Part shown: positions 3,587-42,598 of the stretch, one piece after another
Numbering within the stretch: the first letter of the stretch is position 1
Layout: every line of letters begins with the position of its first letter
Assembly (NCBI GenBank): GCA_017480345.1
Contig: JAFVAU010000025.1
Coordinates: 124,001-188,000 of the forward strand
Direction of reading: 5' to 3'
Length of the DNA stretch: 64,000 nucleotides
Source of the DNA: Bacteroidales bacterium
Lineage (GTDB): Bacteria; Bacteroidota; Bacteroidia; Bacteroidales; UBA932
Position numbers and translations under genes: made by a program
Notes under the pieces: generated by a model
Databases searched by the model: none
What the model was told of the DNA's origin: nothing
Seen by the model: the letters and a program-made list of their open reading frames with translations, nothing else

Positions 3587-3741
3587 GCTTCCTCATCAAC
3601 AGATGACCATTACAGAACTAGTCAAGCTGTAATACAGGATATTTTCTGCAAATTACGCCATTTTTGTCTAAATTTCAAAATGGCGCATAGTCAGGAAATA
3701 CCCAGTCAAACACAGTATTTTTACTAAAAAACTATTCAATC

Positions 3742-5004
3742 ATGGGTATTTTAAAAACCATCAACCGGCGTTTTGACGCCGAACAGCCGGATTCGCTGGT
3801 CTCCTGTAACAGAGCTATTAACGTTCTGTCCCGGGACAATGAATTCATCGACGAAGTACTTCATTGCTTTGCCATTACTCCAGAAAAACGCAAACTCCCT
3901 TTGACCATCGGCAATGTGAACACCCTCCTTGCCGACATTCAGTCACTGGATGAGCAGGATTGGAAAATAGACATTCCTGTTCCACTGCGTAACATCGACC
4001 TTGTAAAGGTTCTTCCCAATGATTACGCCCTATTCCACATCTACGGGATTAAGGACCCGGAACTCATCAAGGCGCTCCGGGCCGACAATCTGGACGTTGA
4101 GTCCCGCTACTCTGCCCGTAGCGACCTTCTGGATTACTACAGTTTGAGCAAATTTGCCTCCTTCCTGCACGACCACAAGATGGGGGCCTATGCGAAAACC
4201 ATCTTGGAGCATCTGCATGCCAATCTTGAGGAGCAGTTCACCTGTTCCGCAAGGCTTCTGTATCACAAGGAGGATGCAAAATATTACCTGAGGGCCGTCA
4301 CTTCGGAAAAAGGCTACAAGGATTACGGGATTAACTTCTCTGTCTTGGTTGCCCTTCTGGCGGTTGACGCCTATGCAAAGTCCAAGCAAGACTCGGTTTT
4401 CATTGACAGTTACAGTATCGATGACTCGCGCGTTAGCCTGTCGTTCCAGTTCGCAAAGGAAATTCCTTTGCGGGATGGGATGTCCCTATCACTCAACCTA
4501 CTGTTGGAAAACGACGAAATCCGCCAGTCGTCCGTTTCCCTAAACGCCATCTTCAAAGTGAAATATGGAAAGGATGACCGCTCCCTCTTCCTCAAACCCA
4601 CTGCGTATCAGAAAAGAGACGGGGAATACTCCACAGACATGCTTACCTACACTCATGGGATGAAAGTCTCCACTGTTCATGAACGAATCTCCACCTTGCC
4701 CTTGCTGATAGCCAAGTATGTGGAGCAGATTCGTACCAACGCCGCTGAAATCTTGAAAATCAACAATCCACAAGAGACGAAAAACTATCTTCTCAGTAAG
4801 GTACAGCGTTCCCGCAAGGAAGAGTTCCTCGGCTACAAAGCCTCCGTTATTCAAAAAATCATCAGCATGGAGGTAAACACGGTCTATGACCTATTCGATC
4901 TCCTCCGTGATGTCGAAGAACTCTTTGGCGAAGACATCAAGTCCCGCAACTATTGGCGGGAAAACCTCTACAATACCCTGATTGAGAAAGGTCGGCGCGA
5001 TTGA
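3742..5004 (+). CDS. Unrecognised 420-aa protein
   Basis: I do not recognise this protein. It has no signal peptide or membrane segment and starts MGILKTINRRFD. The middle (about residues 160-290) has a beta-rich look, with LLYHKEDAKYYLRAVTSEKG, VSLSFQFAKEIPLRDGMSLS and LNLLLENDEIRQSSVSLNAI; that order loosely recalls the phage/plasmid DUF932 family, but this is only an impression. The C-terminus is helical and charged. It stands alone between a toxin-antitoxin module and the fimbrial locus and ends 6 nt before a strong bidirectional terminator. A phage-interaction or defence role is conceivable but unproven. Confidence 0.7.
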   Translation: MGILKTINRRFDAEQPDSLVSCNRAINVLSRDNEFIDEVLHCFAITPEKRKLPLTIGNVNTLLADIQSLDEQDWKIDIPVPLRNIDLVKVLPNDYALFHIYGIKDPELIKALRADNLDVESRYSARSDLLDYYSLSKFASFLHDHKMGAYAKTILEHLHANLEEQFTCSARLLYHKEDAKYYLRAVTSEKGYKDYGINFSVLVALLAVDAYAKSKQDSVFIDSYSIDDSRVSLSFQFAKEIPLRDGMSLSLNLLLENDEIRQSSVSLNAIFKVKYGKDDRSLFLKPTAYQKRDGEYSTDMLTYTHGMKVSTVHERISTLPLLIAKYVEQIRTNAAEILKINNPQETKNYLLSKVQRSRKEEFLGYKASVIQKIISMEVNTVYDLFDLLRDVEELFGEDIKSRNYWRENLYNTLIEKGRRD

Positions 5005-15899: not shown

Positions 15900-16445
15900 T
15901 TAGTAAAACAAAAACTTGCAACCCAGTCCCGCCTGCCAGTGCACATGGCCGATACAAGGCGAGAAATTCACTGGCACCATCCCTTCCGCGACCAGCGCAA
16001 AACGCCGCGCCACAAACACCTCCACCTGCGCATGCCCATACAGGCCATACATAAACGTCGCCTTGTTCCGGCCAATATCCACATACCCAGGCAGCCGCCT
16101 CCAAGGGTCCAGCACCTCCACACCCAGCATCCCCCCACCTCCGGCATAAACACTGACCCGCCGGTTTCGCATACCCGCAATCCGCCACAGATACCCGCCC
16201 ATCACCAGCACATCCCCATACTGCATTCCCTGTCCTGTCGACAGAATAGCACGATATCCATTCCCGCACATGCCCCATTCCCAGAATCCACTCTGGCTAT
16301 ACCGCATACAAAAAGCCCCGGCTCCCACGGACGTACCAGTAAAAGCGCCAGATAAGGTCACACCATACTGGCCAGAAATAGTCCGCTGTGCCGAGGCCTT
16401 GAACCACACCCCCTGCAGCAAAAACAAACACGCCACCAAAACCAT
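15900..16445 (-). CDS. TraO-like outer-membrane protein
   Basis: 181 aa from ATG 16445, chosen because it gives a signal peptide (MVLVACLFLLQGVWFKASAQ); the frame is open back to 16742, which would add 99 residues including two copies of a 22-aa repeat. The barrel-like body matches Bacteroides conjugal-transfer TraO: SVYAGGGGMLGVEVLDPW, then NKATFMYGLYGHAQVEVFVA and a terminal HWQAGLGCKFLFY. No other transfer-pore genes are present, so it may be an orphan reused by the fimbrial operon. The next gene begins 12 nt downstream. Confidence 0.7.
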   Translation of the reverse strand: MVLVACLFLLQGVWFKASAQRTISGQYGVTLSGAFTGTSVGAGAFCMRYSQSGFWEWGMCGNGYRAILSTGQGMQYGDVLVMGGYLWRIAGMRNRRVSVYAGGGGMLGVEVLDPWRRLPGYVDIGRNKATFMYGLYGHAQVEVFVARRFALVAEGMVPVNFSPCIGHVHWQAGLGCKFLFY

Positions 16446-16566
16446 CCACCTGCTCCTCCGTCTCACCACCTCCATATACGCCTCCATCATAGCCACCGTC
16501 AACACCGCCACCCACCTGCTCCTCCATCTCACCACCTCCATATACGCCGCCATCATAGCTACCATC
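16446..16566. repeat. Tandem duplication with 66-bp period
   Basis: Positions 16446-16500 and 16512-16566 are near-identical 55-bp copies (a handful of substitutions). If translated with the TraO-like frame they read AYMEVVRWRSRW and AYMEVVRRRSRW. They lie immediately upstream of the favoured traO-like start. Confidence 0.85.
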
Positions 16567-19633: not shown

Positions 19634-20041
19634 TCATTTTAGTAACTTCTTAGCTCTCGGATAACGTTGCTCCAAAAGATACTCTACGGCCTCTTCCATA
19701 ATGGACATCATCGTAGGACGTTTCCCTTCACCCTCCGACTCCAGCCAAATAGAAATCACCCTTAACTTAAGTAGCGTGCCAGGAGACACCCGCAGACACG
19801 TAGTCCTCCCGGCCTTCTCCTTCTGCTTACTCCCCCTTCTCTTGCTTTTTCCAACTTGCTCCTCCCCCGCACCATCATCCTCGCTATCTTCAACCACAGT
19901 ATTCTCCTTTCCCCTCCCCGCCACTGGTTCCTCCACCATATTCTCATCCTCATCCTTCACGACAGCATCCACCGCCGGTTTCCTGCGCAGTTGCTGCTTA
20001 AACATTTCTAACTGATCCATTTCTTCCATATCCTTAAACAT
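19634..20041 (-). CDS. Small basic protein with RHH-like C-terminus, mobilisation-associated
   Basis: 135 aa from ATG 20041; an open frame to 20140 crosses low-complexity repeats and is less likely. The middle is disordered and charged (EDEDENMVEE, KSKRRGSKQKEKAG), and the C-terminal 55 residues (TTCLRVSPGTLLKLRVISIW, then MSIMEEAVEYLLEQRYPRAK) resemble a ribbon-helix-helix such as DUF3408/TraB-like accessory proteins. It is divergent from mobC across the putative oriT, fitting a DNA-binding relaxosome accessory role. Family assignment is tentative. Confidence 0.6.
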   Translation of the reverse strand: MFKDMEEMDQLEMFKQQLRRKPAVDAVVKDEDENMVEEPVAGRGKENTVVEDSEDDGAGEEQVGKSKRRGSKQKEKAGRTTCLRVSPGTLLKLRVISIWLESEGEGKRPTMMSIMEEAVEYLLEQRYPRAKKLLK

Positions 20042-20049
20042 TGATGTTG

Positions 20050-20225
20050 TACAAACGACTTCCCCATTCTGCAAATCCACAATTCTATGGTTCTCCTTTT
20101 CTGCAATGCTACCAGTTTGCTTCTCGACAAATTTGCACATCTACAAATCTACGATTCCACAATTCTGCAATGCTGCCAGTCTGCAAATCTTCCCGTTTGC
20201 AACGCTGCAAATTCGCGTCGCTGCC
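20050..20225. repeat. Quasi-periodic TGCAAAT-rich repeat region
   Basis: Short imperfect repeats such as CTGCAAATCC, CTGCAATGCTACCAGTTTGC, CTACAAATCTACGATTCC and CTGCAATGCTGCCAGTCTGC recur over about 175 bp on the mobC side of the small basic gene. Open frames here on several strands are by-products of low complexity. Iteron-like binding sites are possible. Confidence 0.6.
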
Positions 20226-20330: not shown

Positions 20331-20410
20331 GCCCCGTCAAAAAGAATTTGAGTGTTAGCTCAAATTGCAAGATGTGCGTTCGTGTCACGAACGCGGCCCC
20401 TGACGGGGCC
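20331..20410 (+). other. oriT: Nested inverted repeats upstream of mobC, candidate origin of transfer
   Basis: GCCCCGTCA (20331-20339) pairs perfectly with TGACGGGGC (20401-20409). Inside are two further perfect hairpins: AATTTGAG/CTCAAATT (20345-20352, 20359-20366) and GCGTTCGTG/CACGAACGC (20376-20384, 20386-20394, one-base loop). A competing hairpin GGCCCC/GGGGCC covers 20395-20410. Position between a divergent RHH-like gene and mobC-relaxase is where oriT lies in Bacteroides mobilisable elements. The nic site cannot be placed by eye. Confidence 0.6.
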
Positions 20411-20456
20411 CTTGCCTGCTGAGAGTGCCTATTATTTGAATGATTTAGATTTTAGT

Positions 20457-21206
20457 ATGAAGGAGTTAAGAGAACATTATGTAGTAGTACGATTTACCGA
20501 AAAAGAATATGATAAATTGGCCCTAAGAATGTCATTAAGCGGATATAATAATCGCTCAAAGTTTATTCGGGAAACCATCCTGACCGGCCGTTTGCAGCGC
20601 AGAAATTACAGCAAGACAGATTCAAACCTGGTACGCGAAATCGCCATGCTGCGTTCCGAATTGAGGCAAATTGGCATCAATTATAACCAACGCGTGAAAG
20701 CCCTCAACACAATCGTCAAACTTCGCGATAAAAATGGGCATTCACTCATTAACAGCCATGACATCGACCGGGACATGACCGAAATGAAAAAGATGATGGA
20801 CGGGATGGTAAAGATAGTGCAAGACATATCTGTTCGGGTGGAAGAACCACATAATGAGGAGACCTCCACCTTTCATGTTAAACTACCAAACAATACGAGT
20901 ATGCAAACAATGATTATTTCAGGAAACCTTGCCAAGGATTGCGAGGTTATCACCGGAAAGGACGGAAACGAGTACATCCGGTTCGACGTGGCTGTCAATG
21001 ACGAAAAAGACAAGGAAGAAAAGCCCACCTATTACACCTGTAGAATGAGGAAAAACGGCATTGCGGACTATCTCAAAAAGGGACGGTTCGTATCGCTGTT
21101 TGGGCCGCTTAAAGTAAGCATAGTCGTCAAGGAAACGAAAACCTATGTAAATCTGGACATCTGGGTTCAGAATCTGGAGTTGCCTCCGGTGCACAAAGAA
21201 AGCTAA
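20457..21206 (+). CDS. mobC: MobC relaxosome protein fused to a single-stranded-DNA-binding (SSB) OB-fold
   Basis: 249 aa from ATG 20457. Residues 1-125 match MobC relaxosome accessory proteins (VVVRFTEKEYDKLALRMSLS, SKFIRETILTGR, LRSELRQIGINYNQ). Residues 155-248 form an SSB domain (MIISGNLAKDCEVITGKDGN, IRFDVAVNDEKDKEEKPTYY, and TYVNLDIWVQNLEL). A short linker contains a Met where a separate ssb gene would have begun, suggesting fusion of neighbouring genes. MobC opens oriT DNA; the SSB part may coat the released strand. The relaxase begins 10 nt downstream. Confidence 0.85.
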   Translation: MKELREHYVVVRFTEKEYDKLALRMSLSGYNNRSKFIRETILTGRLQRRNYSKTDSNLVREIAMLRSELRQIGINYNQRVKALNTIVKLRDKNGHSLINSHDIDRDMTEMKKMMDGMVKIVQDISVRVEEPHNEETSTFHVKLPNNTSMQTMIISGNLAKDCEVITGKDGNEYIRFDVAVNDEKDKEEKPTYYTCRMRKNGIADYLKKGRFVSLFGPLKVSIVVKETKTYVNLDIWVQNLELPPVHKES

Positions 21207-21216
21207 TGCCTGGAAG

Positions 21217-22466
21217 ATGGTAGTGAAAATTGGAAAAGCGACGCCGACCTGCGCAACGGCCGTCGAATATAACGAGAACAAAGTAAATCAGGGGAAAGCA
21301 TCCGTAGTTTATTCTCAAGGAATTGACGACCCAAGTAACCCGATGGCCACCTTTGAGATATACGAGAGGGCAAGCCGTCGGTGTCAGAATCCCTCTTTTC
21401 ACATGTCCATCAATCCTTCCGTTACGGACAAAATGACGGAAGAACAGGTTATTGCGTTTGCAAAAGACTTGATGGCAGGCCTGGGCTATGGTGACCAGCC
21501 TGTCATCATTTACAAGCACTTCGACATTGACAGAGTGCACTATCATGTCGTTTCTGTGCGGGTGGATAAAAACGGGAAGAAAATCAAAGATTCCAACGAG
21601 CACAGGCGATGCCTGAGTCTGACGAAGAAACTCGCTCAAAAATACGGATTCGTAGTAGGTAAAATGGAGGACAAAAAGTACGTGGCCGATATGACCAAAG
21701 AGGATCTGGAGAACTGGATTTCCAAAAACCATCCTACCTACTATCTGGACGAGGCTGCCATTTTACGGGACCCTCGTATCACTTATCTCCGGTTCGACCC
21801 TGAGACAGGCAATTATATACAACAGATTGAGTCCATTGTCAAACAGGCCCTCACCTATCAATTCTCGGACATCAAACAATTCCAAACTTTAATGAGGCAC
21901 TTTGGGATTGACATTGAAATACACAGGCGTCACAACAAACTGTACCTGACGTACTATGGAAGGGATTCCAAAACTCACAAAAGGTGTACGCCTGCATTTC
22001 TATCCAAAACGCTCGACGCCCCCGGACTGGAGGAGATTCGTGACCACTTTGAAAAGAAGGACTCTCCGCCCTCTCTAAAGACGTCGAAGCACTCACCGAG
22101 AAAGTTCTCAAAGTCTTTGAATATGGGAAATCAGAGAAGGACGTACGCAAATACCTCGCATGGCAAAATGTCTCCTTGGTCCTAAACAGGGAGAAAAACG
22201 GAACCATCTCGGACGCGACCTTCATTGACCATCAAAAGCACCTGGTCGTGAGCGGTAACTTAGATGGACTTTTGTTAGCTGACTTAGAAAAAATACGCAC
22301 TACGGTCTGGAATGAGCCCACCATAATGGCAGAGCAAACACTGAGGGCTACTTTGGAAGAGCTGACAGAAGAGGCACTGGACGCTATTGGGTACAGCAAG
22401 AGTCGTCAGAATGAAGATGAAAAATATGCCCCGCAGATTAAAAAGCCAGGACCAAGAAAAGCATAA
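21217..22466 (+). pseudogene. mobA: MobA-type relaxase with an apparent frameshift
   Basis: The first frame (21217-22185) encodes an MOBP-like relaxase: FHMSINPS, then HFDIDRVHYHVVSVRVD near residues 97-113, the metal-binding His triad. It has GTG/ATG start ATG 21217. After about codon 280 the frame turns to nonsense (KDSPPSLKTSKHSP) and stops at 22185, while the -1 frame from about 22053 continues cleanly (ALSKDVEALTEKVLKVFEYG, LAWQNVSLVLNREKNG) to the stop at 22466. The shift is near GAAAAGAAGG at 22051-22060. Either a real frameshift, a programmed -1 slip at A4G, or a sequence error. The catalytic N-terminus is complete, so nicking may persist. Confidence 0.8.
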
Positions 22467-26091: not shown

Positions 26092-27432
26092 TTATGTCAA
26101 GAGATCGATATCTGTTTCCTCCGCCATTTTGGTCGTGCTGAACTTAGCCAGGTAATGTTTGGTGGTTTCCACGGACTGATGCCCAAGAGCCTGACTAATG
26201 ATTTCAATGGACTTGTCCTTGTTTTTTAGCGTCATAGCAAAACTATGGCGGGCAGAATAGATAGTGATATTCCTTTGGCTCTCCGGAAATTCCAGTTCTT
26301 CTGCAATCTTTTTAAGCGATGCGTTGAAACGCTTACGGACCTGCATGAGATAATCATCCAGTTTCTGAGGAGCAACTTCTAAACCAATGATTGGGAGCAC
26401 ATAATCTCCATAGAGTGGAGTATTTTCTCTAAACCAATCCAACTCCCGCTGAATATTGGGCGTTACAATAATGTCAAAAGCCCCTTTGGTTTTAGAGCGT
26501 TTATATCGCATTATCGTCACCTCCTTATTTTCATGAGTATTATCATCTGTCACTGTTGCCCGATAAAAATTAGAATTCGTAAGCAACGCCATATCTTTCC
26601 AGTTCATTCCCCTGCTATAATAAGAGAAAAGGAACAGGTGTTTTGTTCGCTCCAAAACATAGTTTTTAAACTCCGAGCAAGCCAGAAGTTTAAGGTTTTC
26701 CAGTGTAAGATACTGGTCTGTTTTGGTTAATTCGGCCTTTGGAATTTTTACCTTGCCTGCTTCATTCCCGCTACTAAAGGGATACATTTCCTGTCCTATG
26801 ACCTTATCACGTATGGCGACATTAAAAATACGTCTAATCTCTCTGAGTCGGATGCCAATGGTGTTCTCTGAATGCCCCTTGTCCCTGCATTTTTTTATAT
26901 ATGCCTGTAGGTAAGAGACACTTAACTCCTCAAAGAGCCGTTTAGGGAAATTCGTATCATACTCTTCCAAAGACACTAAGGCCCCCTTGGCAATAGCAGC
27001 CTTTTTGTAGCGTCCCTCTCCTACGTAATCCTTTTCAATAACCATCTCGGCAAAAGATTTAAAGAACTCCCGTTTGGGAAGATTAAGGAAGTCCTCCCTA
27101 AAACGCTCAAAAGTCCAATTTAGATGAGATTCACCGTAAGACTTTAATATCCTACGCGCCCGATCTTCAATGCCAGCCAGAGTCTCATTCGCCTCCTTAT
27201 TTGTATATTTTTTTACACTTCCGTCCTCCTCCTTCCTCTCTATAGTAAAAGCACGAACGCCACGGCCTTGATGAAAACGACCACCTTCTTTAGAAGCATC
27301 GAATTCATCGGGGCTAGCGGTAAAACCAGTAACGAAATAAGAACGCTCTCCTCGCTCTGATAGCATCAACAAAACTTGATGTCTGCCGTCTGTCTCAATT
27401 TTACTCTTCAATATTGTCCGTATCACAGTCAT
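26092..27432 (-). CDS. int: Tyrosine recombinase/integrase of the mobilisable element
   Basis: 446 aa from ATG 27432; an upstream ATG at 27498 lies in the promoter leader. N-terminus is an arm-DNA-binding domain (TILKSKIETDGRHQVLLMLS), followed by a SAM-like core and a catalytic domain with Arg in YSRGMNW, then ARHSFAM and LGHQSVETTKHYLAKF with the Tyr nucleophile. Bacteroides IMEs of this type recombine into tRNA 3' ends, and a tRNA-Asn fragment lies 138 bp upstream. The promoter is at 27519-27549 and tandem repeats fill the leader. Confidence 0.92.
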   Translation of the reverse strand: MTVIRTILKSKIETDGRHQVLLMLSERGERSYFVTGFTASPDEFDASKEGGRFHQGRGVRAFTIERKEEDGSVKKYTNKEANETLAGIEDRARRILKSYGESHLNWTFERFREDFLNLPKREFFKSFAEMVIEKDYVGEGRYKKAAIAKGALVSLEEYDTNFPKRLFEELSVSYLQAYIKKCRDKGHSENTIGIRLREIRRIFNVAIRDKVIGQEMYPFSSGNEAGKVKIPKAELTKTDQYLTLENLKLLACSEFKNYVLERTKHLFLFSYYSRGMNWKDMALLTNSNFYRATVTDDNTHENKEVTIMRYKRSKTKGAFDIIVTPNIQRELDWFRENTPLYGDYVLPIIGLEVAPQKLDDYLMQVRKRFNASLKKIAEELEFPESQRNITIYSARHSFAMTLKNKDKSIEIISQALGHQSVETTKHYLAKFSTTKMAEETDIDLLT

Positions 27433-27442
27433 ATCACTCTCT

Positions 27443-27464
27443 TTTGGTCGCAGTTTGGTCGCAG
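27443..27464. repeat. Tandem 11-bp repeats in the integrase leader
   Basis: TTTGGTCGCAG occurs twice in direct succession (27443-27453, 27454-27464), followed by TTTTTG as a partial third copy. They sit between the integrase ATG and the attachment site and could be arm-type binding sites. Confidence 0.6.
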
Positions 27465-27518
27465 TTTTTGATTTAAACCAGCATAAATCCATATACAATA
27501 GACATGCCTTATCTACTG

Positions 27519-42043: not shown

Positions 42044-42598
42044 CTACTGAGCCTGAGCCTGGGCCTGGAGTTCGGCCTGGAGGCTTTCGAGGGTGCGGCT
42101 GTCAGGGATGTTCATGGCCTTGCGGGCCTCGGGAGTGATGTCAATCACCTTGGTCTCATCGAAGTAGATGGCCTGGGAAACGTCGAACAAGGCGGTAAGC
42201 CCCTTGGCCTTGGCAATGTCGGAAACAATCTTGTTGGCCTTCTCCTGGATGGGAGCGGTGAGCTGGGCCTGCTGCTGCTGAAGTTCCTGGGAGATGGACT
42301 GCTGGAATTCCTGGATACGGTTCTGGATTTCCATGAGCTCACGCTCCTTGCTTTCCTTGATGGCGGCCGTCCAGGTGGCCTGCTTCTGCTGATACTGGGT
42401 CATCTTGCCTTGGTACTCTTCCAGCATGGAGGAATAGGTTTCCTCGGCCTCTTTCTGGGAGGCGGCAATGGCCTCGCGGGCTGCATCCATTTCGGGAGCC
42501 AACATCACAATCTCATTGAAGTTCACACGGCCGAACTGCTGGGCAGAGGCAGTGAGGGTAGCAAGTGCCGCAAGGGCGATGACAAAAAGTTTTTTCAT
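42044..42598 (-). CDS. OmpH/Skp-like periplasmic chaperone
   Basis: 184 aa from ATG 42598 (a longer frame to 42622 starts in the upstream gene's tail). Signal peptide ends TASAQ; the body is a long glutamine-rich coiled coil (YSSMLEEYQGKMTQYQQKQA, IQEFQQSISQELQQQQAQL), as in Skp, which escorts outer-membrane proteins. It directly follows bamA, its functional partner, and ends in QAQAQAQ. Confidence 0.88.
   Translation of the reverse strand: MKKLFVIALAALATLTASAQQFGRVNFNEIVMLAPEMDAAREAIAASQKEAEETYSSMLEEYQGKMTQYQQKQATWTAAIKESKERELMEIQNRIQEFQQSISQELQQQQAQLTAPIQEKANKIVSDIAKAKGLTALFDVSQAIYFDETKVIDITPEARKAMNIPDSRTLESLQAELQAQAQAQ

Follow-up and report, generated by a model that had tools for sequence, protein, structure and literature searches.

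Genes and hairpins at the locus

The window, the whole stretch of 64,000 nucleotides of Bacteroidales DNA that was analyzed, contains a series of closely spaced hairpins (positions 20331–20410) that stops 42 bp upstream of a mobA-mobB-mobC operon. The features on which the analysis draws are as follows, in window coordinates:

19634–20140, minus strand: gene for a small divergent protein beside the oriT; unnamed family, possibly ribbon-helix-helix
20331–20339/20401–20409: outer stem, perfect 9-bp repeat, probably incidental
20345–20366 (arms 20345–20352/20359–20366): HP1, 8-bp hairpin on the predicted 5′ (leading) side of nic
20367–20374: GCAAGATG, between HP1 and HP2
20367–20375, minus strand: nic region, 5′-ACATCTTG|C, with the nick predicted between 20368 and 20367
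20376–20394 (arms 20376–20384/20386–20394): HP2, 9-bp inverted repeat, probably the relaxase/MobA recognition and termination hairpin
20395–20410 (arms 20395–20400/20405–20410): HP3, 6 bp, GGCCCC(TGAC)GGGGCC, called a competing hairpin in an earlier reading of the sequence
20411–20415, plus strand: P0 right arm CTTGC, pairing with GCAAG at 20367–20371 and enclosing HP2 and HP3 in the DNA minimum-energy fold
20457–21206, plus strand: mobA (MobC_2/NikA-like) fused to an SSB domain; PF19514 1.5e-11, PF00436 4.1e-10
21217–22185, plus strand: mobB relaxase, N-terminal ORF of 322 aa; PF03432 1.2e-26, Bacteroid_MobB 8.2e-48 (below cut-off)
22176–22466, plus strand: 96-aa ORF in another frame, matching residues 302–389 (C-terminal part) of the relaxase of a related locus, L047
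22473–24365, plus strand: mobC coupling protein (VirD4-like, YWFCY); PF02534 2.6e-22, Bacteroid_MobC 2.3e-186 (below cut-off)
26092–27498, minus strand: tyrosine integrase of the element; PF13102, PF00589
27570–27616, plus strand: right attachment site, a 47-bp copy of the 3′ part of tRNA-Asn

Four inverted repeats had been noticed in the sequence-only reading, and a position check confirmed each of them. That reading also placed the repeats in a divergent gap, as the genes at 19634–20140 (minus strand) and 20457–21206 (plus strand) bear out, just before mobC. A mob gene does adjoin the segment, but NCBIfam identifies it as MobA (Bacteroid_MobA, below cut-off) and Pfam as MobC_2. All three mob genes match NCBIfam models (Bacteroid_MobA, MobB, and MobC) below cut-off, and the mob proteins of the window are therefore divergent. 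A primase-like gene and an HTH gene lie downstream of the mobC coupling protein.

MobA and a single-stranded-DNA-binding domain share one frame in the window (20457–21206); in relatives such as L047, L057, L074, L081, and L083, ssb occupies its own frame, placed after mobA and before the relaxase. The fusion is either genuine or the product of a stop lost in assembly. The relaxase is split over two frames (21217–22466), the 322-aa ORF corresponding to residues 5–260 and the 96-aa ORF to residues 302–389 of a related relaxase, through either a frame break or an assembly error. Because the relaxase frame is interrupted in the assembly, the window copy may depend on another relaxase. The small divergent protein itself has 0 Pfam or NCBIfam matches. 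Among 10 relatives of this protein, one touches the Pfam model of DUF3408 (E 0.0069); a match to omega repressor has an E value of 0.38. The name DUF3408 was dropped, since the protein's own profile misses the annotated DUF3408 proteins of L154 and L155 and the hhalign probability is 5%. Elsewhere in the window, two tandem 66-bp copies, 86% identical, lie within overlapping ORFs (16431–16562).

The left copy of the attachment repeat lies outside the window, in an intact tRNA-Asn at contig positions 42295–42369, and the two repeats are 109.2 kb apart. The DNA that they bound carries TraG (7.4e-169), TraK (4.5e-69), and, with matches below cut-off, TraM and TraN. The segment combines T4SS and mob genes with an integrase and attachment repeats, as expected of a CTnDOT-class ICE. 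Most simply, the tRNA-Asn repeats delimit one such ICE; the alternative is a pair of adjoining elements. In a scan of contig bases 1–188000, the window's core-plus-repeat was the sole one of its type, save for one terminator-like site at 120012. Inside the same segment, at contig 60–80 kb (L164), lie a polysaccharide-export tyrosine kinase and an apparent glycosyltransferase, possibly surface-polysaccharide cargo.

The 91 bases from 20325 to 20415 fold better than their shuffles, both as RNA (−37.9 kcal/mol versus −21.8; z −5.2; 0 of 200 shuffles as good) and as plus-strand DNA (−25.5 versus −10.1; z −7.4; 0 of 200). The DNA fold of the minus strand has a z score of −6.4 and beats 200 of 200 shuffles. 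The RNA minimum-energy fold includes the outer 9-bp stem. The DNA minimum-energy fold lacks it and uses HP1, HP2, the 6-bp hairpin, and the GCAAG/CTTGC stem (20367–20371/20411–20415). A search of the window with Rfam returned three tRNAs and no other family match, a result on which a known RNA family was rejected as the identity of the segment and which is neutral for an oriT; among 11 loci searched in the same way, four matches appeared, all far below gathering scores. A terminator was likewise rejected, no terminator-like site having been found in the segment.

Conservation of the hairpin series

A 171-base query found matches in 11 of 101 genomes. A pattern describing the core occurred at 35 places in 28 of 400 genomes of the genus (0 for the reversed-pattern control) and in 40 stretches of a named genome collection. 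By record title, the 40 contigs of that collection comprise 36 from Bacteroidales, two from Bacteroidia, one from Bacteroidaceae, and one from Fibrobacter, and 18 titles name a ruminant animal. The exact core pattern had no match in viral_contigs, and viral carriers were rejected; a DNA search found no plasmid copies of the segment. Merging of 83 hits gave 39 distinct contexts, to which the second mob locus of the window's own genome (L115) was added as a 40th. The genomes that contain the 39 loci are mostly, perhaps entirely, metagenome assemblies. An order-level match to about 41 bp just before mobA (L011, E 5.5e-4) was discarded as probable chance, with no mob gene nearby in the frames examined.

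The search pattern fixed most letters of the core, and conservation of the core alone therefore proves little: every one of the 15 distinct cores has GC, AGATG, and the next G, at letters that the pattern itself prescribed. Within HP2, the pattern left free only pairs 16–26, 17–25, and 20–22 and held pair 13–29 to Y and R. Across the 15 distinct 30-base cores, 97% of HP2 cells are paired and the covariation score is 0.315, compared with 0.137 for shuffles (0 of 500) and at most 0.152 for slid versions of the repeat. HP1 covaries weakly (0.232 versus 0.177 shuffled; 2 of 500 reach it) in 18 of 25 distinct rows, the other seven having no such HP1 or one of another length.

Among the 40 loci compared, the outer stem is found in the window copy alone, and the longest match in the other 39 is 7 bp. 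The nested multi-branch arrangement, which the sequence-only reading had presented as the special feature of the segment, is thus private to this copy, and a nested three-way fold was rejected as the functional form. The conserved form is a linear series of HP1, GCAAGATG, and covarying HP2, plus a small HP3 in mob-bearing loci. The hairpin immediately after HP2 has a mean arm of 4.6 bp in mob-bearing loci versus 2.9 bp when shuffled (10 distinct sequences); mob-less loci exhibit no excess (2.4 versus 2.5; 18 sequences). A TCCGAAGTC hairpin, common to most order-level loci, occurs in 14 of the 39 loci of the window's group and is absent from the window, L057, and L115.

More distant relatives were collected through mobA. 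A MobA search matched 10 of 247 genomes of the order, and the PF19514 family was found at 51 places in 24 of 295 genomes; of 30 places fetched, one was the window and 29 were examined as order-level loci. The TCCNNAGTC loop motif lies upstream of mobA in 23 of these 29, the exceptions being L141, the fragment L143, and four sub-threshold matches (L144–L147). The rest of the layout, namely HP1, GCAAGNT, a longer inverted repeat, and the CTTGC arm, is clear by eye in most of them. HP1 is unclear in L126, L136, L138, and L153, and the CTTGC arm is not where expected in L135, L137, and L152. Relaxase matches were also present in 127 plasmid records. Three of these were examined, from B. fragilis (NZ_OR675140), P. 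distasonis, and Spirosoma oryzicola, and in each one the core and the loop hairpin are found upstream of mobA; the Spirosoma record, a Cytophagales plasmid with a similar series, is without the CTTGC arm. The earlier statement that the segment differs from simple single-hairpin oriTs is only partly right, because multiple hairpins in series are usual across this oriT family.

The stem of the TCCNNAGTC hairpin covaries strongly in 32 distinct sequences chosen by their loop (82% of cells paired versus 50% shuffled; score 0.787 versus 0.207; 0 of 500). The first free pair of the GCAAG/CTTGC stem (P0 position 6) covaries as well, with 15 of 20 paired versus 8.0 expected (0 of 5000), and the next two pairs do not (12 versus 10.6; 11 versus 10.9). 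That test set aside 31 sequences without such an arm and three without the core. In the window, the sixth to eighth positions of the P0 stem are unpaired and the covarying pair is not formed. GCAAG is present in 21 of 21 order- and phylum-level sequences, which had been anchored on it. A covariance model built from 21 order- and phylum-level oriTs gave 0 matches in the window at E ≤ 10. When applied to 16 chosen loci, the model found L061 (6.8e-8), L046 (0.0024), and L060 (0.005), reached L083 (0.03), L115 (0.06), L049, L059, and L057 only at E values of 0.03 to 0.65, and gave a few hits at other places in the 16 loci. The window's membership in the family therefore rests on synteny and intermediates rather than on a direct profile match.

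Cores without mobA or a relaxase

In 10 of the 39 contexts, mobA and a relaxase follow the core (L001, L047, L049, L056, L057, L061, L062, L074, L081, and L083). Two contexts, L046 and L069, are cut too early to tell about a relaxase, L046 being counted as mob-bearing from the frame seen. Eight others have mobA or a piece of it, with no relaxase found in the downstream sequence, which amounts to at least 3 kb in L048, L064, and L067, about 19 kb in L013 (extended locus L087), and less than 1 kb in L073, L078, L079, and L080. A relaxase match lies on the opposite side of the core in L073. One group of oriT-plus-mobA loci (L013/L087, L048, L064, L067, L073, and L078) possibly combines its own accessory factor with a borrowed relaxase. 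In 19 of the 39 contexts, the sequence searched gave no match to mobA, a relaxase, ssb, or a coupling protein; the downstream sequence exceeds 1 kb in 17 of them and falls short of 400 bp in L054 and L063.

Ten of the mob-less cores (L045, L051, L053, L054, L063, L070, L071, L072, L075, and L076) agree with the mob-bearing L061 at 41–49 of 50 letters. Their flanks agree with those of L061 at 1–11 of 20 letters per block, mostly 4–8, which is chance level, and the sequence after the core differs among the ten loci, except that it is common to L051 and L075. Other mob-less cores match other types: L059 and L055 resemble the L069/L074/L081 type (50 and 49 of 50, the flanks of L059 being common too), L052 resembles L049 (48 of 50), and L077 resembles the window (44 of 50). 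L050, L068, and L084 share HP2 with L115 (41–43 of 50 overall), and L058 and L060 have no close match (35 and 36). In L045, L070, L071, L072, and L075, the conserved oriT-only backbone ends within about 8 bp past HP2 (GGGGAAA) and unrelated sequence follows. L060 contains two oriT-type cores in inverted orientation (3591–3620 and 3786–3815), about 165 bp apart, beside an apparent chromosomal gene.

A mob-bearing and a mob-less copy occur in one genome in three cases (G025, G318, and G262). A PF03432 search of 16 genomes with mob-less cores gave matches in nine, none of them on the contig bearing the mob-less core. The seven genomes with no PF03432 match (G381, G031, G338, G291, G004, G349, and G036) therefore have no resident helper now, or it was missed in incomplete assemblies. 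The mob-less loci look like oriT-only hitchers that probably borrow the cutting enzyme.

Persistence of the core without mobA, in 19 of 39 loci within the sequence searched, bears on whether the segment works as RNA. Control of mobA by a structured 5′ leader or a small RNA, or a role for such an RNA in transfer as reported for the SGI1 small RNA, would be consistent with the RNA fold (z −5.2), the position upstream of mobA, and the covariation, which fits RNA and single-stranded DNA equally. The accessible text of PMC9299015 reports a small RNA needed for SGI1 mobilization. Set against the mob-less cores, the folding of both strands as DNA, and an Rfam result limited to tRNAs in the window, an RNA element appears unlikely. 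The TCCNNAGTC hairpin is retained in the absence of mobA in four loci (L052, L055, L059, and L060), which argues against a pure mob-operon leader.

Slightly less probable still is that the segment is an operator, a site for MobA or the divergent protein that controls both divergent genes while the oriT lies elsewhere. The gap does contain a perfect 9-bp palindrome, and relatives of the small-protein gene accompany 10 of 20 mob-bearing and 9 of 19 mob-less cores. However, neither gene turned up in the DNA searched for five mob-less cores (L050, L059, L068, L077, and L084), a conserved nic-like stretch adjoins the repeat, and contig bases 1–188000 yielded no second candidate oriT. A dual role, with an operator inside the oriT, would suit an origin of transfer as well.

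An island in genome G374, an assembly that is 57% complete, illustrates the relaxase-less arrangement. On contig C2, 44-bp repeats of the 3′ part of tRNA-Met, 19.9 kb apart, bound the island. An integrase, a PDC-S27-type ATPase, and the small divergent protein precede the core; a PLD/SNF2 helicase, a type IIG restriction-modification enzyme, an SMC-like ATPase, PDC-M11, and RhuM/PDC-S05 proteins follow it. No relaxase was found in the island by a six-frame PF03432 search or by Pfam on 10 of 16 listed ORFs. The relaxase (PF03432) of this genome is on another contig, C12, which also has TraG. Judged from its sequence, the island is a complete element with integrase, attachment repeats, and oriT core and without a relaxase. 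None of the other mob-less loci yielded a clear pair of boundary repeats when searched.

In L050, L068, and L084, the core comes immediately after the 3′ end of a tyrosine integrase gene or of a short stretch left over from one, and in L050 and L084 a tRNA 3′ part comes after the remnant. These loci are either very compact oriT-integrase modules or relics. Their arrangement would be compatible with a recombination or attachment site of the integrase, but the repeats found are tRNA 3′ parts (tRNA-Asn here, tRNA-Met in the G374 island) and the window's core is 7 kb from the right end of its element, which makes such a site highly improbable.

Proposed mechanism and comparison with known systems

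The position of the segment before mobA-mobB-mobC, the covariation of HP2, similar series elsewhere, and the presence of the core alone on relaxase-less elements are the bases for reading it as an oriT. We conclude that it is very probably the origin of transfer of the ~109 kb CTn341/CTnDOT-class ICE. The sequence-only reading had offered an oriT or regulatory candidate; synteny, covariation, and the same core on relaxase-less elements support the oriT well, but not the nested form in which it was proposed.

On its minus strand, the core reads HP2-ACATCTTG|CAA. The MOBP nic consensus is YATCCTG|Y, and we take the RP4 nic site to be CTATCCTG|C. In IncP pBS228, the RP4 site is 8 nt from the end of the inverted repeat by eye; a strict scripted repeat ends 15 nt away. 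The nic site of the window is also 8 nt from the inverted repeat, and 5 of the 8 letters before nic agree with RP4. Copies with GCGAG after TT and G at position 11 (e.g., L047) read CCATCTCG|C, also with agreement at 5 of 8 letters. We infer a nick on the minus strand between 20368 and 20367. With the repeat end placed by eye, the window and IncP MOBP oriTs of the RP4 type may have in common an inverted repeat, 8 nt, and an ..ATC(C/T)TG|C site. They differ at the remaining letters before nic and in the relaxase, which matches the TraI/MobA(P) model at 1.4e-7, far below cut-off.

In the mechanism that we propose, MobA, and perhaps the small divergent protein too, would bind at the segment, and MobB would recognize HP2 together with the adjacent 8 nt and cut at the predicted nick (ACATCTTG|C). 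The minus strand would exit 5′ end first, leftward across HP1 and the cargo, with the mob operon entering the recipient last. HP2 would re-form at the 3′ end of the transferred strand and direct the second cleavage. HP3 and the GCAAG/CTTGC stem probably have an accessory role, in relaxosome assembly or mob-operon control, because both are located on the side of the mob genes and most mob-less copies lack them. HP1, the nic region, and HP2, which most relaxase-less copies keep, would be what a MOBP-type relaxase needs for initiation and termination.

A broader proposal, on which our confidence is evenly divided, is that this 50-bp core acts as a shared password in largely ruminant-gut Bacteroidales. 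Full ICEs or IMEs, oriT-plus-mobA elements, and oriT-only elements would all carry it, the last two riding on the relaxase of the first, and several oriT-only lineages would each match a different helper. At least one such element has anti-phage genes, so phage defense would spread by oriT mimicry. For a conjugation family spread across Bacteroidales, the analysis puts forward one specific oriT and a nic position open to testing. That most relaxase-less copies retain only ~50 bp is a natural experiment pointing to the essential part. If this is borne out, a 50-bp motif would suffice to recognize mobilizable genomic islands and assign their helper in these bacteria.

In 2010, Peed reportedly mapped the oriT of CTn341, next to mobA. 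As the available portion of PMC5729914 indicates, a CTn341 oriT adjoining mobA is already known; the available portion of PMC10865816, which concerns the CTn214 element of B. fragilis, specifies no nic for this oriT. The mobABC oriT of the CTn341/CTnDOT class, exemplified by B. fragilis NZ_OR675140, resembles the window in having a divergent gap followed by mobA-mobB-mobC, with HP1, a GCAAGATGT core, an inverted repeat, and a closing CTTGC arm, all lying no more than about 200 bp from mobA. Unlike that class, the window has a shorter, single 9-bp HP2, no TCCGAAGTC hairpin, and a mobA fused to SSB; between its divergent gene and the ParA and DUF3408 genes of NZ_OR675140, no kinship was demonstrated. 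Within reach of the literature searched, the covarying layout across the order and the predicted nic are new.

Relaxase-less mobilizable islands (MGIs, "iOriT") are a known class, as described in the accessible parts of PMC5704250 and PMC11389934. In the literature searched, which mostly did not extend to subscription papers and so leaves absence unproven, no relaxase-less oriT islands were reported in Bacteroidales. The oriT-only and oriT-plus-mobA elements with this family's core in Bacteroidales are new within that literature. Like MGIs, the mob-less relatives of the window, though not the window's own copy, have an oriT core resembling that of relaxase-bearing elements, some with an integrase. 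They differ from MGIs in belonging to Bacteroidales and carrying a CTnDOT-class oriT, the cases in the accessible parts of PMC5704250 and PMC11389934 being from Firmicutes and Gammaproteobacteria.
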